Part shown: piece after piece, positions 2,906 through 30,992 of the stretch
Numbering within the stretch: the first letter of the stretch is position 1
Layout of the letters: each line of letters starts with the position of its first letter
DNA from: a virus
IMG/VR virus record: IMGVR_UViG_3300004460_000078
Coordinates: 1,139-47,126 of that record
DNA length: 45,988 nucleotides
Strand: one strand, 5' to 3'
Made by a program: the position numbers and the translations under genes
The notes under the pieces: generated by a model
Told to the model about the DNA's origin: nothing
Databases searched by the model: none
Seen by the model: the letters and a program-made list of their open reading frames with translations, nothing else

Positions 2906-3128
2906 GCTTCTGGCTCTTCTTAGTGACCTTCTTAGCTTCAGGCTTAGCTACGGCTTTGTCTTCCACCTTAGCCACGTCCACTTTAATTTCGTCCTTAACC
3001 TTAACAGCATCTGCTGACACTTTAGCCGGATGATTGTTACCTGAATTATAACTCCTAGCTGGAGCGCCTGAACGCGTATGAACATTGATACCTGTTTCCT
3101 TTGATCGTTCGAATGGTGTTTTAGCCAT
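2898..3128 (-). CDS. Small Lys-rich protein, first gene of packaging operon
   Basis: A 76-aa protein with a polar N-terminal half and a low-complexity C-terminal half built from repeated Lys, Val, Ala, Glu and Asp (for example KVEDKAVAKPEAKKVTKKSQ). It is the first gene of the leftward operon that ends in the large terminase. A clear Shine-Dalgarno (AAGGAAA) lies about 8 nt before the ATG at 3128. The tail looks like a disordered, charged segment that could bind nucleic acid or another protein. No family is recognised. Confidence 0.65.
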   Translation of the reverse strand: MAKTPFERSKETGINVHTRSGAPARSYNSGNNHPAKVSADAVKVKDEIKVDVAKVEDKAVAKPEAKKVTKKSQKLD

Positions 3129-3332
3129 AGTATTATTTCCTTATATTTGATCTAAAAGATAACCCATATATACGTAGTTACCTACAAATAGCAACATTAA
3201 ACTGCGTTTAGAGTAATATAACTAACTAAACAGCCCGTTTAATATGGTATACCGTACTGTAATTCGGCTAACCCTTTGTATTACTTATATAAAATCTTCT
3301 TAAGAAAGAAGCGTCCGATGGACTCCCGCTAC

Positions 3333-3376
3333 GGGCTCCGCCCTTCGCGCTCATCCATCGTCCTTGGGCTCCGCCT
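3333..3376 (+). repeat. Two GGGCTCCGCC mini-hairpins
   Basis: Copies at 3333-3342 and 3366-3375 each form GGGC or GGC, loop TCC, then GCC(C). The core GCTCCGC is what I recall for the non-template strand of N4 early promoters (template core GCGGAGC). They may be promoter-like hairpins, or simply part of the larger inverted repeat that surrounds the first copy. Confidence 0.45.
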
Positions 3377-3462
3377 CCTCCACATATATATTATATTATT
3401 ATTATATAATATAGCGCCATGGCTCATATTCCTTTGAGCCGCACTTCCCCTACGGGAAAGTA

Positions 3463-3508
3463 CGCCACTCCGATTATTCTCTCGCGAGAATAATCGCTTG
3501 GTGTGGCG
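3463..3508. repeat. Long perfect hairpin with outer stem
   Basis: An 11-bp perfect stem (CGATTATTCTC at 3471-3481, GAGAATAATCG at 3486-3496) closes a TCGC tetraloop. A second stem, CGCCAC (3463-3468) with GTGGCG (3503-3508), encloses it. No T-run follows on either strand, so it does not look like a simple intrinsic terminator. It lies 33 nt before the first promoter hairpin and could be a genome-end or packaging signal, or a vRNAP signal. Confidence 0.6.
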
Positions 3509-3540
3509 CACCTAATTATAATTATAATAAATTACCTTAA

Positions 3541-3569
3541 CTAATAAGTTCGCTAAAGCGAACACAGTA
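3541..3569 (+). promoter_or_regulatory. Putative vRNAP early promoter 1 (hairpin type)
   Basis: CTAATAA is followed by a hairpin GTTCGC-TAAA-GCGAAC (3548-3563), two bases, then AGTA. Predicted +1 is A3566, by analogy with N4, where the hairpin loop lies about 11 bases upstream of the start. It is the weakest of the four in the +1 element (AG in place of GG). Confidence 0.6.
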
Positions 3570-3721
3570 TTAGTCAGATAGGGTTAGGGAAAGAGTACTA
3601 GTTGCGAATGATTAGCAACAAAACTTAAGGCTAATTTTTCATTCTAGGTATGGGTGTAGTACTAACCAGCTGGACCATCCCAGCTGAAACCCACCCCCCC
3701 ATCAAACTACCCTAACGTCCC

Positions 3722-3750
3722 TTACACAATGGGCTAAAGCCCATCAGGTA
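3722..3750 (+). promoter_or_regulatory. Putative vRNAP early promoter 2 (hairpin type)
   Basis: Hairpin ATGGGC-TAAA-GCCCAT (3729-3744) is followed by CA and GGTA; predicted +1 is G3747. It lies 38 bases upstream of the 51-aa gene start at 3785. The upstream heptamer (TTACACA) differs from the CTAATAR of the other three. Confidence 0.65.
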
Positions 3751-3784
3751 CTTACCATAACTCTAACCTATATAGGATAATACT

Positions 3785-3940
3785 ATGAAAACAATTAACA
3801 TGATCGCTGATACTGTCCAACAGTTCCTAGGCATGATCCAAAACTTCGTATCCGCAGGCAATGAAGTCTCCCTCATTACCCTCGATGCTATGAAGCAAGC
3901 TCGCGAACAGGCAGCTGCCGAGTTCGAATCTGCTAAGTAA
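3785..3940 (+). CDS. Small early protein, 51 aa
   Basis: An ATG at 3785 opens a 51-codon frame ending in TAA at 3938-3940. AGGA lies about 8 nt upstream. The product begins MKTINMIADTVQQFLGMIQN and ends in a charged helix (AREQAAAEFESAK). It is flanked by a putative early promoter (3722-3750) and an intrinsic terminator (3942-3970), so it forms a complete one-gene transcription unit. This is the most leftward rightward-facing gene, matching the position of the first small early genes in N4. Small phage proteins expressed first often act on the host, but no family is recognised and the function is unknown. Confidence 0.7.
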   Translation: MKTINMIADTVQQFLGMIQNFVSAGNEVSLITLDAMKQAREQAAAEFESAK

Positions 3941-3941
3941 T

Positions 3942-3970
3942 ACTAGGGGCCTTCGGGTCCCTAGTCTTTT
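3942..3970 (+). terminator. Intrinsic terminator after the 51-aa gene
   Basis: A 10-bp stem ACTAGGGGCC/GGTCCCTAGT (one G-T wobble) with a TTCG tetraloop is followed by TCTTTT. It starts 2 nt after the stop codon. Confidence 0.85.
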
Positions 3971-4109
3971 AATACACACAACAACAAGCACACACAACAC
4001 TCACAGAGAGAGAGTGTAAGAGAGGTATGTAAATACTAACTTTACTAACAATCACTATAACAACTATCACTACTAGTATACTGTACTACACTTAAGAGTA
4101 TAACTATAG
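3971..4109. other. Low-complexity non-coding stretch
   Basis: An AC-rich run with GAGAGAGAG at about 4006-4014 is followed by AT-rich sequence. A 6-bp inverted repeat ACACTC/GAGTGT (3997-4002, 4012-4017) is present. I see no gene. Confidence 0.5.
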
Positions 4110-4138
4110 CTAATAGCCTCGCTAAAGCGAGTCAGGTA
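4110..4138 (+). promoter_or_regulatory. Putative vRNAP early promoter 3 (hairpin type)
   Basis: CTAATAG is followed by hairpin CTCGC-TAAA-GCGAG (4118-4131) and then by CA and GGTA; predicted +1 is G4135. The 190 bases downstream hold no convincing gene (a 25-codon frame at 4160 lacks a ribosome site), so its RNA probably continues into the 4397 gene. Confidence 0.65.
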
Positions 4139-4331
4139 TAGTTAGGTTAGTCCTTTGGATATGACTGTAAAACTCCTACTATATCCTCTTAAGCCTAGGC
4201 AGCTTACTAGTACCGTAGCACCGTATGTCACCGGTTAGGTCATACCGAACAGATAGGTATGTACTGAAATTACTCTGCTCTGCTCAGCCTACAGGCACTG
4301 AGTACTTAGGTTACCAAGTCCTGTATCCTAA
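4139..4331. other. Non-coding leader between promoters 3 and 4
   Basis: It contains a 6-bp hairpin CATACC/GGTATG at about 4241-4261. No gene is supported. Confidence 0.4.
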
Positions 4332-4360
4332 CTAATAAACCCGCTAAAGCGGGTCTGGTA
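4332..4360 (+). promoter_or_regulatory. Putative vRNAP early promoter 4 (hairpin type)
   Basis: CTAATAA is followed by hairpin ACCCGC-TAAA-GCGGGT (4339-4354) and then by CT and GGTA; predicted +1 is G4357. It sits 40 bases before the ATG at 4397, a good distance for a promoter with its own leader. Confidence 0.7.
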
Positions 4361-4396
4361 ATATTACCATTAACCATGACAATTGGAGAATTAACC

Positions 4397-4807
4397 ATGG
4401 CGCTTACAAAGAATAACGAGAACAAGTTCACTAAATCTAACCAGGTTTCTAAGGATAAGTTTATCCTTGGTTCAAGTGAATGCTACTTCGAGCCAGCGCA
4501 AGCTTACAATGGTGTACTGACACCAGAGAAGCTCGCTAAGATGTTGCTAAACCAGAGCACTGTTGATGGTGTTAGCTGCGTTATCGGTGAGACCGGTGGC
4601 GAGGGTAAATCCCTTAAACTTACGTACTTCCGTAAGCACAGTAATGGTGAGACCGTTACTGAAGAAGTTCAGCATGTTGGGTTGATCACTGCGTCTGACT
4701 ATAAGATGCAGCTTGGCGAGGCTCATATTGCTGAGATCCAGAATCATGTTCGTAATGAACAGATTGTTAAGCGTACCGATGCTAAGTCAGTATTGGATAT
4801 GTTCTAA
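4397..4807 (+). CDS. Early protein of unknown function, 136 aa
   Basis: The chosen start is ATG 4397 because GGAG lies 9 nt upstream; an in-frame ATG at 4376 has no ribosome site. The protein starts MALTKNNENKFTKSNQVSKD, is soluble and mixed alpha/beta, and has no motif I recognise. It ends in SVLDMF. It is the first larger gene downstream of the four early-promoter hairpins and so is probably among the first and most strongly transcribed genes. The strong Shine-Dalgarno supports high expression. It is followed by the structured non-coding region 4808-5137. Confidence 0.75.
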   Translation: MALTKNNENKFTKSNQVSKDKFILGSSECYFEPAQAYNGVLTPEKLAKMLLNQSTVDGVSCVIGETGGEGKSLKLTYFRKHSNGETVTEEVQHVGLITASDYKMQLGEAHIAEIQNHVRNEQIVKRTDAKSVLDMF

Positions 4808-5137
4808 GAGCTAACGGGAGGGAGCTTAGGCTTTCTCCCTATTTAGAGGAGCAGTGAGAGGTGGCGCTCACTGTTCTGCTAAGTATACCAATCCCTGCAG
4901 GATAGGAGAAGGGCTTCATAACCCATGAACTACTGAGGCTGTCTAAGACAGGCCAAAGTTCACTCTCCGGCACCTACCTGAATTGAGCTGCTCACTAGAG
5001 TATTACCGGGCTCACGGAACCACAGGTAGGTGTCTTACTTGCATGATATAAAGTGCATGAGGCGAAGACGGCATGCGTATGGTGGCTAACCTAGCCTTAG
5101 GTCACCTTCCTATTCATATAACTAAGGAGTTAACCTA
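4808..5137 (+). ncRNA. Structured intergenic region, candidate phage RNA
   Basis: 330 bases without a gene hold a dense series of inverted repeats. They are AGGGAG/CTCCCT (4819-4824, 4835-4840) followed by ATTT; CAGTGAG/CTCACTG (4852-4858, 4867-4873); TGAACT/AGTTCA (4926-4931, 4957-4962) enclosing a GGCTGTC-TAA-GACAGGCC hairpin; a perfect 10-bp pair CACCTACCTG/CAGGTAGGTG (4971-4980, 5023-5032) enclosing GAGC/GCTC; GCATG/CATGC (5055-5059, 5072-5076); and GGTG-CTAA/TTAG-CACC (5081-5106). The nested arrangement suggests a folded RNA and not stray hairpins. The first hairpin might terminate early transcripts. No known RNA family is recognised; it is not a canonical tRNA. Confidence 0.5.
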
Positions 5138-5314
5138 ATGAAACATTCATTAAAGAAGTATACCACGCGTGATCTTAAGATTGCGTTTGACTCACCTAAC
5201 TTCTCCATTGAGGAGACTGTTGCCATTGAAGTCGAATACCTACGGCGTTTAGATCTTGCTAACGCCGCAACGCACGAAGCTGTTGAAATGGTTCGCATTC
5301 ACAACCTACCTTAG
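5138..5314 (+). CDS. Small early protein, 58 aa
   Basis: An ATG at 5138 with a strong AAGGAG site about 9 nt upstream opens 58 codons to TAG at 5312-5314. The product begins MKHSLKKYTTRDLKIAFDSP and has a charged helical C-terminal half (EYLRRLDLANAATHEAVEMV). No signal peptide or membrane segment is present. It follows directly after the structured region and precedes two small membrane proteins, with a 12-nt gap to the next gene. Function unknown. Confidence 0.7.
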   Translation: MKHSLKKYTTRDLKIAFDSPNFSIEETVAIEVEYLRRLDLANAATHEAVEMVRIHNLP

Positions 5315-5326
5315 AAGGAACATGAC

Positions 5327-5530
5327 ATGAAAATCGCATTATCAATCTCTATCGCTATTGGTTTAGTTATCCTGCTTCAAGCTGCGATAACCTTAACAGT
5401 AGGTATACCGGAAGACTACCTGCACCAAGGCTACCTTGGATTAGCACTGCTAGTTGCAGCCATGGTAGGCGTAGTTTTATCATCTCTCGCTCTGTATGAC
5501 ATTATCATGAGAGATGCCATCCATGAATAG
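5327..5530 (+). CDS. Small membrane protein, two TM segments
   Basis: A 67-aa protein. Residues about 3-26 (ALSISIAIGLVILLQAAITL) and 36-60 (YLGLALLVAAMVGVVLSSLA) are hydrophobic helices separated by a short polar loop (PEDYLHQG). An AAGGAA site lies about 9 nt before the ATG. The stop overlaps the next membrane-protein gene by 8 nt, so the two are probably made together. A holin-type role is possible from the topology alone, but the early position argues for a host-membrane or exclusion role instead. No family is recognised. Confidence 0.7.
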   Translation: MKIALSISIAIGLVILLQAAITLTVGIPEDYLHQGYLGLALLVAAMVGVVLSSLALYDIIMRDAIHE

Positions 5531-5690
5531 GATTATGCCAGTACTAACGTGGTTCGCTGGCCTATGTGCCATCGTAGTCACTCTTACATTGTTAATGGCA
5601 TTTATGGCCTATGACACTGTACTCACCGACTACCAGGAGTGTATCGCTGGCGGTCAAGGCATCCACTGTCCTATGGACGAAACAAAGTAA
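5523..5690 (+). CDS. Small single-TM protein
   Basis: An ATG at 5523 gives 55 aa, overlapping the preceding membrane gene by 8 nt. Residues about 7-30 (VLTWFAGLCAIVVTLTLLMA) form one hydrophobic segment. The C-terminal domain has two cysteines (Cys40 and Cys49), which could form a disulfide if exported. An intrinsic terminator begins 6 nt after the stop, closing this early unit. Overlap and shared membrane character suggest a pair with the upstream gene. Function unknown. Confidence 0.65.
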   Translation: MNRIMPVLTWFAGLCAIVVTLTLLMAFMAYDTVLTDYQECIAGGQGIHCPMDETK

Positions 5691-5695
5691 GTACT

Positions 5696-5718
5696 GAGGA
5701 ACCTGAGGGTTCCTCTTT
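5696..5718 (+). terminator. Intrinsic terminator
   Basis: Perfect 8-bp stem GAGGAACC/GGTTCCTC with loop TGAG, followed by TTT, immediately after the 55-aa gene. Confidence 0.8.
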
Positions 5719-5747
5719 ACTTGGTAATAGATAGTGAGGCGATTTTT

Positions 5748-5966
5748 ATGGTTACAGTCATTCAATCCCGCAATAAAAACCCTAATCCAAAGGCCTTGAA
5801 GCAAAAGATCAAAGACATTCAGATGTACTCCTTAGACAGTGCAAGCATACAAATGCCTCTCCAACGGAGAAAGCGTGTTGTAGCGCTGCCTGTTGTTAAA
5901 GCTACTAAGGATAAACGAGCTAAGGTTAAAGCTGCTCGTAAAGCTAATCGTAAACGTAAATCATAA
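5748..5966 (+). CDS. Small strongly basic protein
   Basis: ATG 5748 is chosen over an in-frame TTG at 5721 because GAGG lies about 9 nt upstream of the ATG; this gives 72 aa. The C-terminal third is almost entirely Lys, Arg and Ala (KDKRAKVKAARKANRKRKS), typical of nucleic-acid-binding tails. There is no folded motif I recognise. It may bind DNA or RNA or target the host transcription machinery. It opens a run of small genes (5748-6967) that lead to the RNA polymerase gene. Confidence 0.7.
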   Translation: MVTVIQSRNKNPNPKALKQKIKDIQMYSLDSASIQMPLQRRKRVVALPVVKATKDKRAKVKAARKANRKRKS

Positions 5967-5978
5967 GGAGATAGTGAC

Positions 5979-6254
5979 ATGCCAACCAAAGCCCAACTCG
6001 AACAGCAAATACGTACATTGAGTGACCAGCTCGTAAATGCAAATAACGCATTATCCCAACAAGAGAAAGTTACAGAGCACTGCTACAATGAGCTGGACGA
6101 GCGCAATACTGAGATACTCGAGCTCGAGAATCGTATTAAGAGCGAAGCTGACAAATTCGCACAAGTTAACAAGGAATCTACGCAATTGCTGCATGAAGCG
6201 CGTATGCTAGCTAATGCATACATGAATGTTATCCGGGAAATATCCTGCGGTTAG
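5979..6254 (+). CDS. Small coiled-coil protein
   Basis: A 91-aa protein preceded by AAGGAG. Residues about 1-75 are one long amphipathic helix with regular hydrophobic spacing and many Gln, Glu and Asn (AQLEQQIRTLSDQLVNANNA, then ELDERNTEILELENRIKSEA), consistent with a parallel coiled coil. It probably works as an oligomer or partner protein. No family is recognised. The next gene starts 8 nt later. Confidence 0.75.
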   Translation: MPTKAQLEQQIRTLSDQLVNANNALSQQEKVTEHCYNELDERNTEILELENRIKSEADKFAQVNKESTQLLHEARMLANAYMNVIREISCG

Positions 6255-6262
6255 GAGGTACT

Positions 6263-6598
6263 ATGTCTACAGAAGCCAACCAATGTCCTACTTGTAAAAG
6301 TCAGGACATACGTACATTAAAGACCACAGAGCGCAATCAGTACTACAACTGCAATAACTGTCATGTTGGGTACTGGTTGCCTCTCCACAAAGCTCTAAAG
6401 CCTACTCAGGTAGATCCTGTACTCTTTTGTGACGCAGCAACTATGGCTGGTAAAATCAATAAACCCTTAACATGTGATGAATGTGGAAGCCCTTCCATGT
6501 ATATCGCTAGTGTATTAATGGAAAGACAGTCTGTTATCTTAAAGTGTGTCGATTGTGGCCATGCCCAGGAAGACAGCTTAGACGAGGTACTATCATGA
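6263..6598 (+). CDS. Double zinc-ribbon protein
   Basis: A 111-aa protein with two zinc-ribbon units. The first has CPTC at about 8-11 and CNNC at about 30-33; the second has CDEC at about 72-75 and CVDC at about 95-98. Zinc ribbons of this kind bind nucleic acid or protein partners, including RNA polymerases. GGAGG lies 6-8 nt before the ATG, and the stop overlaps the next start in ATGA. The early position just upstream of the phage RNA polymerase would suit a transcription accessory factor, which is inference only. Confidence 0.8.
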   Translation: MSTEANQCPTCKSQDIRTLKTTERNQYYNCNNCHVGYWLPLHKALKPTQVDPVLFCDAATMAGKINKPLTCDECGSPSMYIASVLMERQSVILKCVDCGHAQEDSLDEVLS

Positions 6599-6789
6599 TA
6601 TCATATGACTCGATTGTTGCCCTAGCCCGTTTGGTTACGGCATTCGATAACTATGAGGATAACGTTGGATTCCCTGAATTCAATCTTCCTCACGAAGAGC
6701 TAGCTCATACTCAACTAGAGAATGCTATATCCCACGCTAGGGATATCGTTGAGGAGGCTAAATTATCTAATAAAAAACCCCAACCCTGA
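6595..6789 (+). CDS. Small acidic protein, 64 aa
   Basis: The ATG at 6595 forms an ATGA overlap with the zinc-ribbon gene's stop, which fixes the start (a longer frame from 6544 would run through that gene). The product is acidic and helical (MISYDSIVALARLVTAFDNY, then EELAHTQLENAISHARDIVE) with a short Lys- and Pro-containing tail. Function unknown; translation is probably coupled to the upstream gene. Confidence 0.65.
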   Translation: MISYDSIVALARLVTAFDNYEDNVGFPEFNLPHEELAHTQLENAISHARDIVEEAKLSNKKPQP

Positions 6790-6802
6790 GGAGTATAGCT
6801 AC

Positions 6803-6967
6803 ATGCATAAATCTATTGAGAATATTCTAAACAAGAAGAAACCAGAACCTGAACTACTTATCCAAGATTGCACTACATGCCAGCACAGTACCGATAACTT
6901 CGGTAGATGTATGGGGTGTGATGATTGTGACGCAGACACTTTCGACGGGTGGGAAGCCCTAACTTAA
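6803..6967 (+). CDS. Small cysteine-rich protein, 54 aa
   Basis: The start at ATG 6803 is supported by GAGGAG about 10 nt upstream and leaves 54 aa. The second half has DCTTC and CMGCDDC, a Cys-x2-Cys-x8-Cys-x2-Cys-x2-Cys array suited to one zinc ion, and ends in an acidic segment with Trp. The N-terminal third is Lys-rich. It is the last gene before the RNA polymerase gene, about 100 nt away. Function unknown. Confidence 0.65.
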   Translation: MHKSIENILNKKKPEPELLIQDCTTCQHSTDNFGRCMGCDDCDADTFDGWEALT

Positions 6968-7071
6968 CATAAGCCTTATACATTTTATCTGGCTGCACCT
7001 AATCATAAGATAATGGGGAAAAGTTTGCCAATTTTTCCTCAGTCTTTTCATATACATAAAGGAAGATCGTG

Positions 7072-8808
7072 ATGACTGAACTAGATCAGTATGCCTTAGA
7101 GATGTCTTGGTCCACACGGGCCAGTGACGCAATCATTATCGAAGCCATTCATGGGGAAATCCCTATGAATATCGAGATGCCTATCCGAGAAGAAATCGCT
7201 GATCTGAATACCGGTACGGTAGAGGATACAGAGATATACGTTAAGTTCTTGTCTCTTATCTTAAAAGAACGGGCTCCTAAGCCTATCCAGGCGATCGCTA
7301 CCCAGATGGGACATCTGGCTGGAGCATTTAAGTCCACTGATGCTTTCTTATGGGGATTACTCCTCGTAAAGAACTGTAAAGACATGGGCCTCTATTCGCT
7401 ACAACAAGTAGAAGAAGAGTGGTACGTGATTCCTAGCTTCTCTTTAGATAAGAAAACTATACAAAAGCTAGATAAGCTACAGTATCTGCCACCTATGCAA
7501 GTTCAGCCTAAGAACTGGACTAACAATACTAATGGCGGATGGCTATGGGAGTCTAAGCACCTAGTACTAGGTACGCGGTTTACTAAGCATGATAAGCCAC
7601 TGGCTTATGATGTTATTAATAAACTCCAAAGCATTGCTTGGGAGATTGATACAGAAACTTACCTACTCGAGAAAGATACTAACCGTAACCTCAAGAAAAA
7701 GCAGTTCCTACGGGTTGTCCACGAATATGTGGATAAGCCGTTTCACTTTGTATGGAGATACGACTCCCGTGGGAGATCTTACTCTTCGGGCTATGACTTA
7801 AATTTACAAAGTAATGAATATGGCAAAGCCTTACTTAGCTTACATAAGAAAGAAAAGATTACCAGAATGGATAATCTCCTTGTCGCTATTGCTGGTCATG
7901 CCGGCAAAGACAAACTTACCTGGGAAGATCGTATCAGCTGGGCTGTAGGCCAAGATCCTGAAACGATCGAGTGGGAAGAACCTACCCTAGGCCGTAAGGC
8001 TATCAGAGCTTACCGAGATGCTATGGACGGCCGTAAGTCCGGCTATGTAATGACCCTTGATGCTACAGCATCAGGCATTCAAATCATGGCAGCTCTATCT
8101 GGCTGCAAAAAAACAGCTAAATGGGTTAATATGATTGACCCAGATGTACGCTATGATGTGTATAACGAAGTTACTGCACGGATGAATACTAAGCTGGATA
8201 CCCCAGTAAACCGTAAGGTAATCAAACAATGCGTCATGACCCACATGTATAACTCTAAGGCGACTCCAGAGGCATTATTGTCCGAGGAAGCGCTTGAGGT
8301 GTTCTATGACGTCATGGATGGAATGCTCCCAGGAGCTGATGACGTACTACAAACGATCAATGACTGCTGGAATACAGAGGCTGACCACCATACGTGGACT
8401 ATGCCTGATGGGCATACTGTGTACATCCCAGTAGTTGAAGGAACCTCTGCAACCTATCGTGACCAAGACTTAGGGGATATTTCGCTAAGATACTATGAGC
8501 AGCGACCTTCAGAAAACTACAGATCCCTAGCACCTAATGTATGCCACGCTATTGATGGCTACCTTGCTAGAGAAATGATCAGACGATGCGATTTCCAATT
8601 AAGTCATATCCATGACTGCTTCGCATTTAGCCCGGATCACCTACAGTCAGTAGCTGATACCTACCGAGCTATTATGTCTGAGATTTCTTCAGGAAATCTA
8701 TTTCAGGACATTCTTCGCCAGCTATCAGGAAACCCGCTTCTTGAAGTAGTAAAGTATTCCAATGATCTAGATCAATGTATTCTGGATAGTAGTTATATGC
8801 TATCCTGA
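7072..8808 (+). CDS. Single-chain T7-like RNA polymerase (N4 RNAPII type)
   Basis: The 578-aa protein carries all catalytic motifs of single-subunit phage RNA polymerases. DSRGR at 231-235 is the DxxGR motif. Motif A is MTLDATASG with Asp330. Motif B has Arg381, Lys385 and Tyr393 at exactly the T7 spacing. Motif C is HDCF with Asp515. T7 RNAP is 883 aa; this one is compact and lacks an obvious T7-type promoter-recognition domain. In N4, the middle-gene polymerase is a heterodimer of 269- and 404-aa subunits; here both halves are in one reading frame. It would transcribe middle (replication) genes downstream. ATG 7072 is chosen over GTG 7069; AAGGAAG lies about 7 nt upstream. A strong terminator follows the gene. 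Confidence 0.9.
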   Translation: MTELDQYALEMSWSTRASDAIIIEAIHGEIPMNIEMPIREEIADLNTGTVEDTEIYVKFLSLILKERAPKPIQAIATQMGHLAGAFKSTDAFLWGLLLVKNCKDMGLYSLQQVEEEWYVIPSFSLDKKTIQKLDKLQYLPPMQVQPKNWTNNTNGGWLWESKHLVLGTRFTKHDKPLAYDVINKLQSIAWEIDTETYLLEKDTNRNLKKKQFLRVVHEYVDKPFHFVWRYDSRGRSYSSGYDLNLQSNEYGKALLSLHKKEKITRMDNLLVAIAGHAGKDKLTWEDRISWAVGQDPETIEWEEPTLGRKAIRAYRDAMDGRKSGYVMTLDATASGIQIMAALSGCKKTAKWVNMIDPDVRYDVYNEVTARMNTKLDTPVNRKVIKQCVMTHMYNSKATPEALLSEEALEVFYDVMDGMLPGADDVLQTINDCWNTEADHHTWTMPDGHTVYIPVVEGTSATYRDQDLGDISLRYYEQRPSENYRSLAPNVCHAIDGYLAREMIRRCDFQLSHIHDCFAFSPDHLQSVADTYRAIMSEISSGNLFQDILRQLSGNPLLEVVKYSNDLDQCILDSSYMLS

Positions 8809-8830: not shown

Positions 8831-8852
8831 TTACCTCCCTGGTAAAAACTTG

Positions 8853-8883
8853 GGCCTCTCCTTCGGGAGGGGCCTCTTTTTTT
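8853..8883 (+). terminator. Strong intrinsic terminator after RNA polymerase gene
   Basis: A 9-bp stem GGCCTCTCC/GGAGGGGCC (one T-G pair) with a TTCG tetraloop is followed by TC and a run of T. It separates the early RNA polymerase unit from the next genes. Confidence 0.9.
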
Positions 8884-19923: not shown

Positions 19924-20223
19924 GTTAGTGTTTTGTGGCATTGGTACAGCATTATCAGAGCCACGTTAAACTTATCTAATGCAGGGTAGGACTTTAGTGG
20001 CCTATCTTATGGGGCGCTTCCTAACTGAAGGGCCTGCCTGAACTGAAGTGTTCTAAAATACTAGTCCTCTCCGGACGTTGGCGGCAAACTGCGAATGGAG
20101 AGGCATTTATTTACTCTTTGGGTGGCGGTGAGTGTACTCAAATACATATAGCCGGGTTATAGCTCCCTCTGGCCCAGGCTCCACTGCCACCCGAAGCTCT
20201 TCTCTTACATGAAAGGTCTTACT
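19924..20223 (+). ncRNA. Second structured intergenic region, candidate phage RNA
   Basis: About 300 bases without a gene show several strong stems. They are GTGGC/GCCAC (19935-19939, 19960-19964), GGTAGG/CCTATC (19985-19990, 20001-20006, one wobble), CCTCTCC/GGAGAGG (20066-20072, 20097-20103) and GGGTGGC/GCCACCC (20120-20126, 20186-20192). A direct repeat AACTGAAG occurs at 20023 and 20041. The last stem spans 73 bases with a 7-bp outer helix, tRNA-like in size, but it lacks a T-arm and anticodon arm. The region may be a regulatory leader or a small RNA; no family is recognised. Confidence 0.45.
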
Positions 20224-22567: not shown

Positions 22568-22752
22568 AAGACTTCCTAACAACGGCGAAAGCATTAGTAA
22601 TCACTCTCGGGTGCTTGCTAATTGCGATCCCCTTATTTGTTGGGGTCATGTGGCTTACACCGATTGTCGTCATAGCGGCAATCGGTGGCTGCCTCTTTAT
22701 TATCATCAAAATCTTACTTCACGAAACTCCGGACTCTCCCTCAGATCCTTAA
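22564..22752 (+). CDS. Small two-TM membrane protein
   Basis: A 62-aa protein with hydrophobic segments at about 9-31 and 32-51 (VITLGCLLIAIPLFVGVMWL, TPIVVIAAIGGCLFIIIKIL) and a short polar tail. It begins in an ATGA overlap with the upstream gene and is the last rightward gene. Its stop codon overlaps the last 4 nt of the convergent vRNAP gene. A holin-like role is possible by topology only. Confidence 0.65.
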   Translation: MKDFLTTAKALVITLGCLLIAIPLFVGVMWLTPIVVIAAIGGCLFIIIKILLHETPDSPSDP

Positions 22753-25700
22753 TCAAAAGGGGAGATATCCAAAGCATTCTCAAGACCGTGTATAGTCGTA
22801 GCTGAATCAAATAATTCATCCTGTTGGAAGAGATGAGGTAACAAGTCGCCTACAAACACTGAACCATTAATGTTAGCTAAAGTATCTAATCCTGTAACAG
22901 ATTGAAGCCCTGCAGCTGTCATAACCATAGTTGGAGACTTCTGGATCATGCTTGCAGCAGATCTTGTGTTCCGTAGCTTATATGACAGGAACGCAGTGAA
23001 CCCCAATGAGTTTATAGTCTCCAGCCATGGATGCATGTTCTCATCAAACAGAACGAAAGCATCAATTGACTCTTGTAATGCTACGTCAAACGATTGCCCT
23101 TTTACGTCAACTGCGTGACTAATCATTGCATATCGGCTCAAGAAGTCAGTCAACTGTACTACTTCTTTATGCTTCCGATACACAAAGCTACTCTTAGCTA
23201 AAACAATGTTCTTAGCAATATCAGTTACTAGTTCCGGAACCTTATCCGAGTACTTCGTGATCCGCTCTGCCTGTAGTACTTTCTGTGTACGATCTATAAA
23301 GCCTTCTGTTGATGCTGTGTTCACATCCTCAACAATCAATGAGTTCAGGCCTACTGAGCTCATAAGATGCACTGGGTTACGCTCAATCTCAGCTCCCAAT
23401 GCTGCTTTCTGCCGCTCAAGTGCTGCCTTCTGCGCACCTGTAGCTAGCTGTATCTTATGGTGAACATCGCGGTACAGCTGCGTATCCGCTTCATAGCGCT
23501 TATACGCCTTATATCCCTCAGCCATTTTAGTTACTGCGTATCGTGGGGATATTTTACGAATTCCCAACTGGTAGATATTACTTACCATGTTATTGATAAG
23601 AACCATCAACGTAGCCATAACAACACGTTCCATACCAAACGCCATCACCTGACGTACGCTGTAATGGAACTTTTTCATAAAGGCCCTTAGAGGAGCTAAT
23701 AGCTCTCCCTGTATACCCGGGATGTTGCTCATGTCCTTCGCAGTGTACCCAAATACCTTATAAATCACTGCATCACGTACTTTAAACTCACCGTTGAGTG
23801 AATACTGCTGCATATACTCTTTTACTTCTTCAGGTAACTTCAGGTACTTCTCGTAATGCTCCCCTTCAGGATCCAGTATGTTAATAAACTTTCCTTTGTA
23901 GCTTGGCTCTAAGCCAACCCACTCATCGACCAATAAGTCAATCGTACGTTTATCAGCATCTACTGTGTTTTTCTTACTAATGTAAGATGAGTTCATATTC
24001 GCGAATACATTTTGATACTCAAGATCAGGCTCAAATATAGTCTCTACATTATAGGCATCCATAATGATGCGATAATCTACAATATTGTTATTCTCATCGC
24101 GAATAGGACGAAGCTTCTGATCAGGAATTTCCTTCCCCTCTTTAGCTAACTTACGCTGATCCTTACGTACTTCATTAACCTTGCGGCGGATCGCCAAGTA
24201 ATCTGGCACACCCTTACTATCTTGGAATGCTTTATCTTTAGCTAGTATCTCACTCAAAGAAGTACCACTATGGTGCTTACCTGTTGTAGATAGGATACCA
24301 GATACGTGTCTAATCTCTGGAGACCATTTAGCTACAAACATGTGGGTATGAGCCTGTGGTACATTAGGAATTTTGCCTAACTTGTAAGGTAGCGTGAACC
24401 CTTCACGAGCCATTTGCTTTGTGTCAGCTAAAGTCCCAGTCTTCACATCAGTCAGATTATCAATCTTATCTACAGTCCAACCCTTCTGCATCTGCGTCGG
24501 ATTACCACTAAATAGATCTCTACGGGATACATTTACATACGCTCTATGGGCTTCCAACATATACTGGAATGCGTTCTCCTTAGGATCAGCTTTCATTTCA
24601 GCTTCCATTAGGGAATTAACCATAGCTAAATCTGAAGTCTGGTGCTCCTGGAGAGCCGTTAATGTAGCAATCGCATCCAGGCGCCGCACGTTATCAGTAG
24701 TTGTCTGCTCAGAAGTTAGAAAGCTCTGAGCGATACTATGAACGTTAAAATGTGCATCAGGTAGTTTAGACACCTGAGTCACCAAGAACTGTCCTAATTC
24801 CTCTGTATAGCGGATAGCGTCACTATTGCCTTTAAAGCCTGTAGCCTTAATGAGCTTAGCCTTCTCACGTTTAATAAGGTCCGGAGAATTAAGCAACATA
24901 CGAATTTGCGCAGGATTATATCCAGCGCTTAGTAGGCTACTTAGGTCACTTTTATAGACTACTCGAGTTATAGCCTGACGAGCCTTGAGAGTAATCTCCT
25001 CTGGCTTAGTAGCTTTCCACGACCCTTCCAATCTGAAGATCGCATCTCTAGCTACTTGCTGGTAGAGCTTACCGATATTCACTTTAGTAAATAGTAATGC
25101 CTTTACCAAATCTGCTGTTAAGGCGCCTCCGCCCATCTCATCAAAGATGTGCTTCATAACATCGCCCATGCTGGCATAGGCTGCCATCGTAGCCGTCTGG
25201 CGACCTGCTCCCTCACCTATGGCTACAATGCCGCCACCGATCACTGCATTCGAGAATCGGCTAGCTATGTTTCCAGGGTTAGAGCTAATTGCTTGCTGTA
25301 CCCTATCTTGAACAAATTTACGGATCTTTGAGTCTGCTGCATTAATGTACTTGCCTGACACATTCTCAATACTATCTAACTTGCTTTCGTGACCAGACTG
25401 TATCTCTATCAACTGAGCTGCGATAGCTACCATTTCTTCATATGAGTTAGTAGATTTGCGCTTATTAATAGCCCGAAGGAATTGATCTAAAATCACATCA
25501 ACAATGTGCTGCAGCTGAGCTAAGAACCCATCACCGCGCTCCGGCCGGCGACTGTCGAATGTCTTCAACGCTTTGATCACTGCTTCATTCGTAACAGCAT
25601 AAGCCAGGAATTCCTCTGGCACATTACGTGCTTCCGGGCCAAACAAATAATTATACTGTTTCTTAGCCAGGGCTATTTCAGCTGGTGTAGAATTAGCTAA

Positions 25701-28700
25701 GCTATCACTCAAGAATACTTTGTAGCCGCCCATCTTATCTATAGCTTTACGAGCATTATTTCTGACTCTACGAATCTGCTCCCCAATCAGTTTATTATCT
25801 GCGATCGCTGTGACAGTGAGAGCATGCAGTAGTTCGTGAACATATGTCTCCTGTGGAGAGTACTCATTACGAGCTCCTGGGACATCACGGCTCAGTGATA
25901 CCGTTACACGCTTGTCTGCAGCATCGTAGTTGCCTTGTGTCATTCCATCGATCTGCTCTAGTGTTAACTTGAGCTTCGATACGTGATCCATACCTTTAGC
26001 TAATACATCCATGATGCGGGATAGAGACTCATTATGAGCATCCATCGCTGCTTGACTTGGGTAGTACTTACGAGACAGGTTCTGGAATTTCTTAAATAGC
26101 CTTTTGACACTATCTTTGGTTATGTCTTTAGCAAATACTGTCTGCGGGTTTTCTCTCCGCTGATTATCCAAGGTCCCAAAAGTTAAGTCTTCGACAAAAC
26201 TCCTCATTGCCTTATCCGCAATGGTCGTCTCGGCTGTAAAGTTTGTTGGCTTAGCGTACTTACGTAACTCAGTGCGTAAGTTCTCGAGCATTACCTCGTA
26301 CGCTGCAGATCCCATCTCTTGGATGTACTCATCTGTCTTAGACGTATTGTTATCTGAGCCATTCAGCATATCCTTCAACAGACCCATAACTTGGTTCTGA
26401 GTTAGACCCTCATCTTTGAACCGCTGCTTCATTTCTTTAAGACGAGCATCAATAATTTTGTTATCACCTTCAGCTAAGCCTAGATATTCAAATGCTCCTT
26501 CGTTGGTATACCCCTGTAATACCGCTAAACCATCATCAGTACCCAAGCGCTGTAACAATGCGTCGTACTTGGCTCTCAAAGCTGGAGTAATTACTTTGGT
26601 GCTAACCTCAGGCGAACTAAAGAATATCTTTAGCTTATGCACATTAAGACTAGCTTTGACTGCCGCAATCCTACTATCTACTGACAATCCTGCATCAGGG
26701 TTAGTCACTGCCATATCCTGCGCAAACAACTGGCTAGTCCCAATACCACCTTTTTCCTCGATAAGTCCTTCTAGATCTTCTTTTACCGCTACACTTCTAT
26801 CAGCTGCTGCGTCTACTACTCCTACTAGTGCAGCGAATGTTAGCGGCGGCTTATCAAAACGAAATGTATTGATGTATGCATCTCTCTTAAGCCTAGTGTT
26901 AATAGCCAATAACATAGCTTTACCTTCGGCAGTTTCCGTAATCCCTTCACCGCCTCCCAGTGCTTTAGTAGCTGCAATCATTGCATGCATCTGGTTACGC
27001 ATGATGTCAGATATGTTTGTTTCACGACCATACTTGAGGTAATCCGTGTTGTACTTCTCAGAGAACTGCATAAGTACTTCTGGGCGACCAAACACCGCAT
27101 CGTACAGCGGCAGTACCTCAGGATGCTTTTCCAAGGACAGCGACAGTAAAGACGCGTCCATATTAATAATACCACGAATCAATGCACTCACACCTGGCGT
27201 AGTAAATTCCCTATTTCTTGGTTGGTTAGTACGCTCAACTGCCTTATACGGATCATTGGAAGACAGGTCTTTAGTGAATGATGATACCCGATTAGCATCA
27301 GCTGCATCCCGAACACCTACGCGCTTACTGAGATCAATAAACGAATCTACAGTAGCGTCATTAAGAGGCCCTTTATATTGGGGAAGCCACTGCTTCAAGT
27401 TACCTTTAACAAGCTCAAGAATTTCTACTTCTGTTAAGGATCCTGTCCTACCTAAGTCCTTTAACTTTTTTGCATAAGCCGCTTCGTAATGTTCCATGAA
27501 AATAGAATGCATTATCTCTGCAGCCTGAACTACGCCTTCACGTAATTCCTTTGTATCTCCAAGCATGGCGTTTAGGCCAATGCTGAAGCGAGGCTCAATT
27601 ACCGCTGAGATAGCAACCACTAACGGGCCCTCTTCAAAGGTAAAGTTCTGTGCCATACCCATCTTCAGACGATTGCCTAACTGATCAAGCGATCGGTCCA
27701 TACGTGGGTTACTATGAATAACCTTTAGATGAGCAATAAATGTATCAATGTCTGCTTTGCCTTCTGGCGTAGATCTATTAGCCTGTAATTCACCCATAGT
27801 TTGGTACAGGTGAGTGATGATATTTCTAGCTACGCCTTGAGCAATTGCTTGGACACCACCGCCATACAAGAAAATCATAAATGGGTACTTAACTAAGTCC
27901 CTAGCTTCTGGATCCGCAAGATCTGGAAACACTGCATTCAAAGATTTGGACCGGGTATCATACGTTTCACGTAACTGCTCTACCCGATCTTCTTTCCAAA
28001 ACCGCTCAACGGTGTAGTAGTCTGCTGCTGCATCTACACTCCGAGACTCAGGAGCTTGGACTTTAGACCCTAAATCAAGATAGGCATCCGTGTGTACGTC
28101 TTCCTGTTCATAGATACCACTAACTAAGTGAATCCTGCCTTCAGGATCCCTAGCTAAGTAAGTGCCTGTCTGGTTTAGGTGCTTCTCAAGATCTTCCGGA
28201 GTGTTGAACGAAGGAAACTGGAGAATGTTAATAGCAAAGCCATTGGAGATACCATCAATCTCAAGCGGTATATCCGACTTAAACGCATTCTTAAACGATG
28301 ACGCTGGCTTCCCATCAGCCATATGCTGAGCCCATGCCTTACTGTATTTATCGTATTTAGCTAAGCCTAACAGCCCGGTGATCAACGAGATATCTGTTCC
28401 TTTGAATGGGCTATTGCTCGCAGTCTTTAATTTCATTAAGACCTTCGCGAATGCATCTACATCTAAGTTCTCCGCAGTCAGTAACTTGACTGCAGCTTGC
28501 ACATCCGGATGAGCCGTATATTCATCAAATGTCCGGTTAATGTCTACCGGAGTCTTTTTGTCGATCTTATAGCCTAAGTTAAACATCACAGCATACTTGA
28601 ACATATGAATGTTATCTTTGGTGTACGTCGTAGTTCCTTTAGGCTTAACCATGTGCCGCATGAAGTGACTGTTCTGGGCGTTAATAAGGCCTACCTGCAT

Positions 28701-30992
28701 AATACGATGCTGGTTCATCAGCTTATATTTATAATAGAAACTAGTTAACCAGCCTTCATTGCGAGCTCGGAGCACTTCCTCTAGAGCTTGAATTTTATCC
28801 TTATTTGATGCTTCAATCGCATCTGCGTGAATCTTGATATCGCTTGCGCTCATAGACTTCACATTCATAGTAGCATGCAGCACACTCTTATGCTGCTCTG
28901 CTAGCTGCGCTACGATACTCAATGCGTCAGCTTCGCCCCACTCCACATTCTGGAGTGCCTTCAGCGTTCTACCAAGCTGTTTAGGTACATCACCAAATGA
29001 GTTGCGGATACTACGAACTGTTTGTTTAGCTGGACTCTGTAATGGCTGACTAGCATTTTCTAGCTCGACGCCACCACTGAGAACAGCGGTTGCTGCATTA
29101 TGCGCCAACACCTCAATCTTATTGGTCCGGGTTTGTGTAGTAAATTTAATATGGTTATAGCTTTGTTTATGTTCGAAGTTACGACCACTTTCGTCTGCGT
29201 TACCGAAGTCCCAGACCTTAGTTTGGATAGTTAAATTCGCGACATTACTGTCAGTAACACCAGCATCCTGATTCAAAATCTCGATTGCTATCGCACCTAA
29301 TGAAATGTTCAACCCTTCAGTGAAGGCCGATAATTCTGAGCTTTGTGGAGATACTCCCAAAATACCTTTAATTAACGTTCCAACATCTTGAACGGCATAA
29401 CGGTAATCAATACCTAGGCCGTCCATCTCACGAGCATCTACATCACTTACATATGCCCGCTGATCCCCATACATAAACAGAGCTCTGTCCTTACGCGTAA
29501 GGAGTGGGTTATCAGACGGATTCTGTATACGCCAACTATCTGCAGCAACCATCATTGCAAATACAGCTTGTGGAGGAAGTTCTCCTGCAGTTTGTGGGTT
29601 CTGTTCACTAAACCGCTCAAGGAGTCGTTGAGGCTTACGCAAACCTGGCGTATCTGAACGACCTTCCATAGCTTTCTCAATAGGCACTCGTAGCTGCTGA
29701 TACGCAGCATTGTACTCTACGTACCTATTAGCTAACGTATTGGCCATCTTGGGCTCAACGCCAATGCTAGCCAATGCATTTACAAACGGTTCCAGTTGCT
29801 CAGGCGAGCTATCTTTAGGAAAGATATGTGACGGGATATTGAATACACCGTTACGGCTTTTAGTGATCTTAATGAGATCATTGATCGTTTTATTAGCGAA
29901 TGCTACCCCAGACTTTACACTAGACACTAGCTGACGAAACCCTCCTTCACCTAAGAAGTTAGCCTCTTTGCTAGGCGCTGCCGGTATCTTCGCAACCTTG
30001 ATATTAGATGATGCCGAAGTCTGCTTCGGTAACATACCCATCTGCCGTAGTGCATCTATATTAGCTCGAGCTTCTATCTCAATAGCACTATCAGCTAACA
30101 TCTCATTAGTTAAGTCTTCGAATCCATACTTCTTGGCGATAGTTTGGCTAAGCTTACTACGGTAATTTTTACTATCTAAAGGGTGGCTGACATGACTACG
30201 TTCATGCTCTAACACAAATTCTTGTATTTGTTCTGGCGTCATCTGGTTAATCAGATCGACTAGCTCTACACCATGCTCATCTCGCATGTAGGCTGTTACT
30301 GCAGCCTTCTGCTTAGATGATGGCTCATGCCCATCTAAGTACTCGAGTAGCTCTTCTTGAGTAATATCTTTTTTAATGACAATGCCTGAAGGAGTAGAGC
30401 GAGCTAATGCCCCATCAAGAATACTATTGTCGCCATCTACATACTTAACTGACTCTCGTTGTCCATTCGTAATAGTAACTACTAACCCATTATTCTCCGC
30501 TTCCTTAACCATGTTAGCAGTGCCACGGCTAGTGCCATCCCAGCCAGCTAAAAGGTGTGTACCCAGTTTAGCCATCTGAGCATTACCATTCTTATTCCCG
30601 TCTGCCGGCATAGCAATCACTGGGATGCCCAATTCAGCAGCTAATGCTTCACCATACTGGTCTACACCACTAGCAGTTCCAGAAATAATAGCTACATCAT
30701 CAATAGACTTCCCTCTAAGGAATCTATTGAGCTCATACCTAATGGCGTCTAGATTCTCAAAGTCACGACTACCAGCAATAATCAAGCGATATGGACGGTC
30801 TTTAGGAGCCGTAGGCTTCTCTACTTTGAGCTGCTTACGGAGCTCTTCCATTTCAGATAATACAATATCTCTATGCGCCTGGAGTGCATTCATTTCTCCG
30901 CCCATATCTCGAGCTAATGTATTAAACTTCTTGCGATCCTCGACGGAGAGCCGCTGCGTATTCATACATACTGCGAGACTTTTCTTGGCCAT
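22749..30992 (-). CDS. Giant virion RNA polymerase (vRNAP) with SLOG and zincin-like motifs
   Basis: A 2747-aa polyprotein-like virion enzyme, equivalent to the N4 vRNAP (about 3500 aa) that is ejected and transcribes early genes from hairpin promoters. Residues 66-175 form a SLOG/DUF2493 domain (GSRDF at 74, SGTASGVD at 104, WDGTSRGT at 151). HERSH (His263, Glu264, His267) is a zincin-like motif. The polymerase core follows: DxxGR-like region with Arg763 (NQHRIMQV), motif A IDGISNG with Asp913, motif B with Arg1031, Lys1035 and Tyr1043 at exact T7 spacing, and motif C PLYDAVFG with Asp1298. HELLH (His1719, Glu1720, His1723) is a second zincin-like motif. A hydrophobic stretch lies near 2450. 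The AAAAAGG site lies inside the small upstream frame at 30999-31127. Confidence 0.92.
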   Translation of the reverse strand: MAKKSLAVCMNTQRLSVEDRKKFNTLARDMGGEMNALQAHRDIVLSEMEELRKQLKVEKPTAPKDRPYRLIIAGSRDFENLDAIRYELNRFLRGKSIDDVAIISGTASGVDQYGEALAAELGIPVIAMPADGNKNGNAQMAKLGTHLLAGWDGTSRGTANMVKEAENNGLVVTITNGQRESVKYVDGDNSILDGALARSTPSGIVIKKDITQEELLEYLDGHEPSSKQKAAVTAYMRDEHGVELVDLINQMTPEQIQEFVLEHERSHVSHPLDSKNYRSKLSQTIAKKYGFEDLTNEMLADSAIEIEARANIDALRQMGMLPKQTSASSNIKVAKIPAAPSKEANFLGEGGFRQLVSSVKSGVAFANKTINDLIKITKSRNGVFNIPSHIFPKDSSPEQLEPFVNALASIGVEPKMANTLANRYVEYNAAYQQLRVPIEKAMEGRSDTPGLRKPQRLLERFSEQNPQTAGELPPQAVFAMMVAADSWRIQNPSDNPLLTRKDRALFMYGDQRAYVSDVDAREMDGLGIDYRYAVQDVGTLIKGILGVSPQSSELSAFTEGLNISLGAIAIEILNQDAGVTDSNVANLTIQTKVWDFGNADESGRNFEHKQSYNHIKFTTQTRTNKIEVLAHNAATAVLSGGVELENASQPLQSPAKQTVRSIRNSFGDVPKQLGRTLKALQNVEWGEADALSIVAQLAEQHKSVLHATMNVKSMSASDIKIHADAIEASNKDKIQALEEVLRARNEGWLTSFYYKYKLMNQHRIMQVGLINAQNSHFMRHMVKPKGTTTYTKDNIHMFKYAVMFNLGYKIDKKTPVDINRTFDEYTAHPDVQAAVKLLTAENLDVDAFAKVLMKLKTASNSPFKGTDISLITGLLGLAKYDKYSKAWAQHMADGKPASSFKNAFKSDIPLEIDGISNGFAINILQFPSFNTPEDLEKHLNQTGTYLARDPEGRIHLVSGIYEQEDVHTDAYLDLGSKVQAPESRSVDAAADYYTVERFWKEDRVEQLRETYDTRSKSLNAVFPDLADPEARDLVKYPFMIFLYGGGVQAIAQGVARNIITHLYQTMGELQANRSTPEGKADIDTFIAHLKVIHSNPRMDRSLDQLGNRLKMGMAQNFTFEEGPLVVAISAVIEPRFSIGLNAMLGDTKELREGVVQAAEIMHSIFMEHYEAAYAKKLKDLGRTGSLTEVEILELVKGNLKQWLPQYKGPLNDATVDSFIDLSKRVGVRDAADANRVSSFTKDLSSNDPYKAVERTNQPRNREFTTPGVSALIRGIINMDASLLSLSLEKHPEVLPLYDAVFGRPEVLMQFSEKYNTDYLKYGRETNISDIMRNQMHAMIAATKALGGGEGITETAEGKAMLLAINTRLKRDAYINTFRFDKPPLTFAALVGVVDAAADRSVAVKEDLEGLIEEKGGIGTSQLFAQDMAVTNPDAGLSVDSRIAAVKASLNVHKLKIFFSSPEVSTKVITPALRAKYDALLQRLGTDDGLAVLQGYTNEGAFEYLGLAEGDNKIIDARLKEMKQRFKDEGLTQNQVMGLLKDMLNGSDNNTSKTDEYIQEMGSAAYEVMLENLRTELRKYAKPTNFTAETTIADKAMRSFVEDLTFGTLDNQRRENPQTVFAKDITKDSVKRLFKKFQNLSRKYYPSQAAMDAHNESLSRIMDVLAKGMDHVSKLKLTLEQIDGMTQGNYDAADKRVTVSLSRDVPGARNEYSPQETYVHELLHALTVTAIADNKLIGEQIRRVRNNARKAIDKMGGYKVFLSDSLANSTPAEIALAKKQYNYLFGPEARNVPEEFLAYAVTNEAVIKALKTFDSRRPERGDGFLAQLQHIVDVILDQFLRAINKRKSTNSYEEMVAIAAQLIEIQSGHESKLDSIENVSGKYINAADSKIRKFVQDRVQQAISSNPGNIASRFSNAVIGGGIVAIGEGAGRQTATMAAYASMGDVMKHIFDEMGGGALTADLVKALLFTKVNIGKLYQQVARDAIFRLEGSWKATKPEEITLKARQAITRVVYKSDLSSLLSAGYNPAQIRMLLNSPDLIKREKAKLIKATGFKGNSDAIRYTEELGQFLVTQVSKLPDAHFNVHSIAQSFLTSEQTTTDNVRRLDAIATLTALQEHQTSDLAMVNSLMEAEMKADPKENAFQYMLEAHRAYVNVSRRDLFSGNPTQMQKGWTVDKIDNLTDVKTGTLADTKQMAREGFTLPYKLGKIPNVPQAHTHMFVAKWSPEIRHVSGILSTTGKHHSGTSLSEILAKDKAFQDSKGVPDYLAIRRKVNEVRKDQRKLAKEGKEIPDQKLRPIRDENNNIVDYRIIMDAYNVETIFEPDLEYQNVFANMNSSYISKKNTVDADKRTIDLLVDEWVGLEPSYKGKFINILDPEGEHYEKYLKLPEEVKEYMQQYSLNGEFKVRDAVIYKVFGYTAKDMSNIPGIQGELLAPLRAFMKKFHYSVRQVMAFGMERVVMATLMVLINNMVSNIYQLGIRKISPRYAVTKMAEGYKAYKRYEADTQLYRDVHHKIQLATGAQKAALERQKAALGAEIERNPVHLMSSVGLNSLIVEDVNTASTEGFIDRTQKVLQAERITKYSDKVPELVTDIAKNIVLAKSSFVYRKHKEVVQLTDFLSRYAMISHAVDVKGQSFDVALQESIDAFVLFDENMHPWLETINSLGFTAFLSYKLRNTRSAASMIQKSPTMVMTAAGLQSVTGLDTLANINGSVFVGDLLPHLFQQDELFDSATTIHGLENALDISPFD

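Follow-up and report, generated by a model that had tools for sequence, protein, structure and literature searches.

N4-type phages package an RNA polymerase in the virion and start infection with it. To our knowledge, functional RNAs have rarely been reported from these phages, and none is named in the limited literature covered here. Their early genes are read by the injected polymerase from DNA-hairpin promoters, which in N4-like phages are reported to combine a 5–7-bp stem and a 3-nt loop with a central purine in the template strand (PMC4496689, PMC3715699). The stretch of DNA analyzed here (45,988 nt, hereafter the window) comes from a 54.8-kb IMG/VR virus record. It encodes a giant virion RNA polymerase (vRNAP), an RNAP2-like polymerase (7069–8808) and an N4-like DNA polymerase with ~40% identity to those of known N4-like phages; because these genes are present, the phage, which is uncultured, is assigned to the N4 type. 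Behind an early gene, g143, the window holds a 330-nt gene-free region (4808–5137) that probably works early on at the RNA level, as a control element or an effector (Table 1).

Table 1. Coordinates of features in the window and of conserved RNA modules in related contigs (contig handle before the coordinates)
Feature	Position	Strand	Details
Promoter-like DNA hairpin, candidate 1	3548–3563	+	GTTCGC-TAAA-GCGAAC; perfect 6-bp stem, TAAA loop; putative, by N4 analogy
Promoter-like DNA hairpin, candidate 2	3729–3744	+	ATGGGC-TAAA-GCCCAT; ahead of 51-aa ORF; putative
Promoter-like DNA hairpin, candidate 3	4118–4131	+	CTCGC-TAAA-GCGAG; putative
Promoter-like DNA hairpin, candidate 4	4339–4354	+	ACCCGC-TAAA-GCGGGT; directly ahead of g143; putative
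g143, early protein	4376–4807	+	143 aa from ATG 4376 or 136 aa from ATG 4397
H1, 10-bp hairpin	4816–4839	+	GGGAGGGAGC-UUAG-GCUUUCUCCC; 8 nt behind g143 stop; z −3.49, 1/1000
H2, imperfect 7+11-bp hairpin	4840–4885	+	abuts H1 without linker; z −5.27, 0/1000
H4, three-way junction	4905–4968	+	GGAGA/UCUCC closes two hairpins; z −2.47, 13/1000 (4904–4968)
H5, 12-pair helix	4969–5034	+	42-nt loop with inner stems; z −3.88, 2/1000 (4967–5036)
Unremarkable remainder	5035–5137	+	includes ribosome site AAGGAG of next gene; z +0.33 for 5037–5137
58-aa ORF, next operon gene	5138–5314	+	
Terminator-like hairpin	5696–5715	+	8 bp then TTTACTT; putative
Giant vRNAP gene	22749–30992	−	2747 aa; phrog_2206, E 4.3e-178
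Module B, full-length	L015 3829–3930; L023 1890–1996; L034 3768–3891; L038 3560–3673; L047 6916–7020; L049 388–284 (−); L043 6099–6201		
Module B, short variants	L054 3331–3364; L055 3369–3402		
Module A	L028 3285–3428; L023 2700–2843; L054 3417–3560; L043 6230–6355; L015 3961–4085; L026 483–620		

The called gene upstream of the region runs to 4807 and the one downstream begins at 5138, and no ORF led by an SD sequence, no tRNA and no tmRNA was found between them; a hidden ORF was rejected for want of an SD-led frame. Rfam searches at gathering and relaxed thresholds, which included GOLLD, ROOL, ToxI, CRISPR-repeat and riboswitch families, returned no match, and membership in a known RNA family was rejected on that ground. 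The region has a minimum free energy of −120 kcal/mol. Against dinucleotide shuffles it reached z −3.54, with none of 100 shuffles folding as well, and an independent repeat gave z −3.31 (1/400); its antisense folded less well (z −2.43 and −2.05 in two runs). The gene-free status and the dense hairpins proposed in a first-pass annotation of this DNA are thus both borne out. So is its perfect 10-bp helix closing a 42-nt loop, which lies in H5 and pairs CACCTACCTG (4971–4980) exactly with CAGGTAGGTG (5023–5032), a kind of helix found in 2.4% of shuffles. Within the 330 nt, the signal lies in 4816–5034, and the last ~100 nt are ordinary, with no structure beyond chance against shuffles in 5037–5137. 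H1 and H2 together (4814–4887) gave z −6.18 (0/1000 shuffles), a value that, like those of H4 and H5, is optimistic because the sub-domain borders were picked after folding.

Structure is not limited to the gene-free region and does not start at 4808. Strong folding extends upstream into the coding region of g143, which reached z −3.9 when compared with 60 synonymous-codon shuffles, and 4360–5137 (778 nt) folded as one piece gave z −6.58. Comparable values against codon shuffles were observed for g143 coding sequences of two relatives (−5.7 for L038 4802–5182 and −5.3 for L023 4414–4788, beside −3.9 for window positions 4397–4807); the copies of L004, L033 and L025 showed no excess folding against synonymous-codon shuffles. 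Genome-wide folding lies somewhat above codon-shuffle expectation (mean z −1.4), so that z near −3 taken alone is moderate evidence. Most of this clade has structured early gaps (84 gaps, a list that includes at least one missed gene; mean z −3.3), and 4808–5137 is therefore not exceptional among them. The most extreme gap (L033 3623–4266, z −10.8) was set aside because called ORFs of L026 and L025 align with it; it appears to be a missed gene and not an RNA.

The annotation had also placed the region just downstream of the strongest putative early promoters. A sigma-70 scan yielded fewer sites than expected by chance, and four N4-type hairpins upstream, starting at 3548, 3729, 4118 and 4339, are better candidates for that role. 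All four have 5–6-bp stems, the loop TAAA and flanks in common, and relatives show 3-nt-loop forms (GGC-TMC-GCC). Short perfect hairpins are abundant in 3101–7100, with 25 found versus 8.7 in shuffles (maximum 13). By analogy with N4, the TAAA-loop hairpins are candidate vRNAP early promoters. The early unit containing 4808–5137 would span from ~4355 to the terminator-like hairpin at 5696–5715, which probably marks its end. Within 4808–5137 itself, no internal promoter or processing signs were found. H1 is a G+C-rich hairpin behind a coding region, as intrinsic terminators have, and no T-run stands right after either stem, H1 being followed by TATTTAGAG and H2 by TATACC.

Other noncoding features of the window were recorded alongside. 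A gene-free region between divergent genes (3129–3784) belongs to a similarity cluster of 24 contigs and holds an 11-bp palindrome (3471–3496) and a TTCTAGGTAYNNNNTCAGTACTAA-like repeat motif that recurs several times in L004; it may serve in replication or early control. Behind the RNAP2-like gene (8852–8875) stands a very strong terminator hairpin, GGGCCTCTCC-TTCG-GGAGGGGCCT, followed by CTTTTTTT. A further gene-free stretch on the plus strand (19924–20208) is strongly folded too (z −4.0, 0/200), and a search for a homologue of it found none. The comparable middle region of some relatives (L018, L025) carries tRNAs and a conserved block, AACCGACTGCCAAGAGCCC...GGCAGAGGTT.

Relatives were gathered by an ATPase scan that gave 28 loci, most of them different relatives whose RNAP is 56–68% identical to that of the window, with one at 42%. 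The sole homologue of 4808–5137 is one identical contig, with no difference over 17.9 kb. Neither blastn against phage and plasmid records, nor nhmmer and blastn against all fetched relatives, nor a covariance model (CM) search returned another, and the H5 helix pattern had no match in comparable context among viral and genome contigs. A Limnohabitans match to that pattern was set aside; it spans 81 nt without the window's loop, looks like chance and probably lies inside a coding region. The flanking genes differ in how far they can be followed. Homologues of g143 occur in ~15 related contigs, diverged to 19–36% identity with the window's copy; g143 had no match in Pfam or PHROG at useful scores and none in a fold search (model mean pLDDT 75). 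The 58-aa ORF has no homologue among the relatives.

The site behind g143 can be compared by position. Of 17 g143 copies, 14 are followed by 80 nt that fold with z < −2; the mean z is −3.85, and the window's copy, at z −5.68, is among the clade's strong post-g143 hairpins. In six relatives (L023, L026, L033, L034, L035 and L038) a T-run stands behind this hairpin, which in several relatives looks like a terminator. Strong folding is missing from three copies: that of L004, which has a small gene next to g143, and those of L054 and L055, in which a covarying RNA module, B, together with module A or with blocks C/D, lies right behind the g143 stop; these elements are also present in further early gaps of related contigs. 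A structured element is thus kept at the site. H1/H2 occupy the slot of the relatives' hairpin, and to take them for the hairpin that the clade usually has behind g143 is simpler than to see a distinct RNA species in them.

Module B is a short double-pseudoknot RNA with a ACGCCTGAGCATGCGTGAAACTGCTC core. Its two pseudoknot helices are 100% paired in all 81 cells across nine sequences, two pairs of the first helix are changed on both sides in compensatory fashion, and sliding the helix partners as a control abolishes the pairing. Six loci add an upstream hairpin; its loop base-pairs with downstream sequence, and here too compensatory change is seen. In five of these six the module lies 66–194 nt behind a promoter-like hairpin. 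A nearly invariant block, GGTTCWAATGYACTGCTTCTAAGGCGTTTAGTCCGGGCAGGCATCCTCCTGAACCAC, was seen adjoining module B (L034 3876–3966, L047 6845–6925, L048 5950–6050). Module A, the RAATCCGAT domain, forms an 8-bp stem with several compensated pairs and the invariant loop AATCCGAT, flanked by GATGCRAGC/GCCCAAG. In L023 and L028 it sits inside gene-free regions of 680–800 nt that hold further conserved blocks; blocks C, D and a 3′ part are common to L028, L023, L029 and L055. Rfam at gathering thresholds reported nothing but tRNAs in 15 relatives, the 796-nt gap of L028 had no Rfam match down to E 1, and module A had none. Module B was found in neither Rfam nor INPHARED, where the search gave no convincing relative. 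Judged by their paired changes, modules A and B are conserved, previously undescribed predicted structured RNAs of this clade, and they are a more novel result than the window's own element. That element was rejected as a copy of either. The module A model (CM R2) scored at best 4.5 bits (E 1.8, in 3100–7100) versus 92–153 in members, the module B model (CM R1) at best 6.8 bits versus 84–104, and the module B motif was absent from the window with up to 3 mismatches allowed.

These findings lead us to a reading that we hold slightly more probable than its negation, in which 4808–5137 is an untranslated RNA of an early operon, with H1/H2 as the clade's post-g143 3′-end hairpin and 4905–5034 as a lineage-specific structured insert. 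The injected vRNAP would transcribe the region at the start of infection from one or more of the putative hairpin promoters in 3548–4354. H1 and H2 may shield the g143 message at its 3′ end or set where that end lies, and are probably a stabilizer or a leaky terminator; as no T-run follows, they would give at most partial termination, and the polymerase would read on to the 58-aa gene. The insert would sit where relatives have structured RNA modules of other kinds, and it probably acts as RNA. The best case for function of the window's version is that the content of the slot varies yet stays structured, a case of position, not of sequence. Of the original proposal of a new phage RNA, part survives: the excess structure, mainly on the sense strand, the placement in an early unit, a site structured in nearly all relatives and, at that site in two relatives, RNA elements with compensatory changes. 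What finds no support is a distinct RNA species, since the sequence has no homologue besides the identical contig and no internal promoter or processing signs.

Several other explanations were weighed. The region, especially 4905–5034, might yield a stable small RNA of its own that is produced very early and acts in trans, for example as a counter-defence decoy or mimic, after the fashion of RNA anti-CRISPRs or RNA antitoxin mimics, or as a regulator of phage or host mRNAs. Dense, self-contained folding with little linker and the early position would suit such a molecule, conserved modules are swapped in and out of the post-g143 slot in relatives as effectors would be, and phage RNA anti-CRISPRs provide a precedent (PMC10651486). 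We nevertheless regard it as unlikely, given that 4808–5137 has no promoter or terminator of its own around it, no CRISPR-repeat, ToxI or other Rfam match and no homologue. It is a tentative thought, too, and an unlikely one, that the slot works as a cassette of which 4808–5137 is one allele: N4-type relatives would exchange structured RNA modules (pseudoknots, junctions, hairpin arrays) behind g143, have the injected polymerase transcribe them as infection starts, and employ them as RNA effectors, for example in anti-defence. If the region were instead a cis-acting leader of the gene at 5138 (a riboswitch, thermosensor or translational control), its place ahead of that gene's ribosome site and a three-way junction resembling leader architectures would be accounted for; however, structure is weakest in the 100 nt adjoining the ribosome site, no riboswitch family matches and the downstream gene is not conserved, which leaves this the least probable of the explanations.

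Strong folding could also be a bulk property selected in early transcripts, coding and noncoding alike, in that self-folding RNA would leave the single-stranded template of vRNAP more easily. The N4 enzyme forms RNA:DNA hybrids and its template recycling needs host SSB (PMC4496689), the g143 coding region is strongly folded too, and plus-strand genes fold more on the sense strand (−1.9/−1.8 versus −1.1), which late genes do not. Yet the excess is modest in most early genes, middle genes with another polymerase give similar values, g143 is unfolded in L004, L033 and L025, and 5037–5137 is unstructured; we consider a bulk effect improbable. Nor do we give much credence to the idea that the region has no function and is what remains of a gene or RNA since lost, with hairpins arising from chance and composition. 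The region is without demonstrable conservation, and its whole-region z of about −3.3 comes from a genome scanned for odd regions and with an elevated folding background, but the H1+H2 value (z −6.2, 0/1000 shuffles) and a post-g143 slot structured in 14/17 copies speak against it. The window belongs to a clade of uncultured N4-type phages that fills its early region with structured RNA and includes at least two RNA families with compensatory changes, absent from Rfam, in an apparently exchangeable slot. If the modules act as RNA, they would represent a new set of earliest-stage phage functions with concrete sequences to test.

Compared with described systems, the locus shares with intrinsic terminators and 3′-end stabilizing hairpins a stable hairpin 8 nt past the stop, where relatives add a T-run; it differs in that neither H1 nor H2 is followed by a T-run, H1 is directly joined by another long hairpin and ~150 nt of further structure follow. 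GOLLD and ROOL are likewise structured noncoding RNAs of phage or environmental genomes and are large, whereas the window's element has only ~220 structured nt and no Rfam match. RNA anti-CRISPRs (Racr) are also short phage hairpin RNAs near early or accessory genes; the window has no above-threshold Rfam match to CRISPR repeats and no repeat-like unit. With N4 early units the window has in common a vRNAP gene, N4-like polymerases and short stem-loops ahead of early genes, although its putative promoters carry four-base TAAA loops on 5–6-bp stems in contrast to the 3-nt loops of N4-like phages. Modules A and B of the clade have no sequence or CM match in the window's element, but they share its place: in L054 and L055, B joined by A or C/D stands at exactly this position behind g143.
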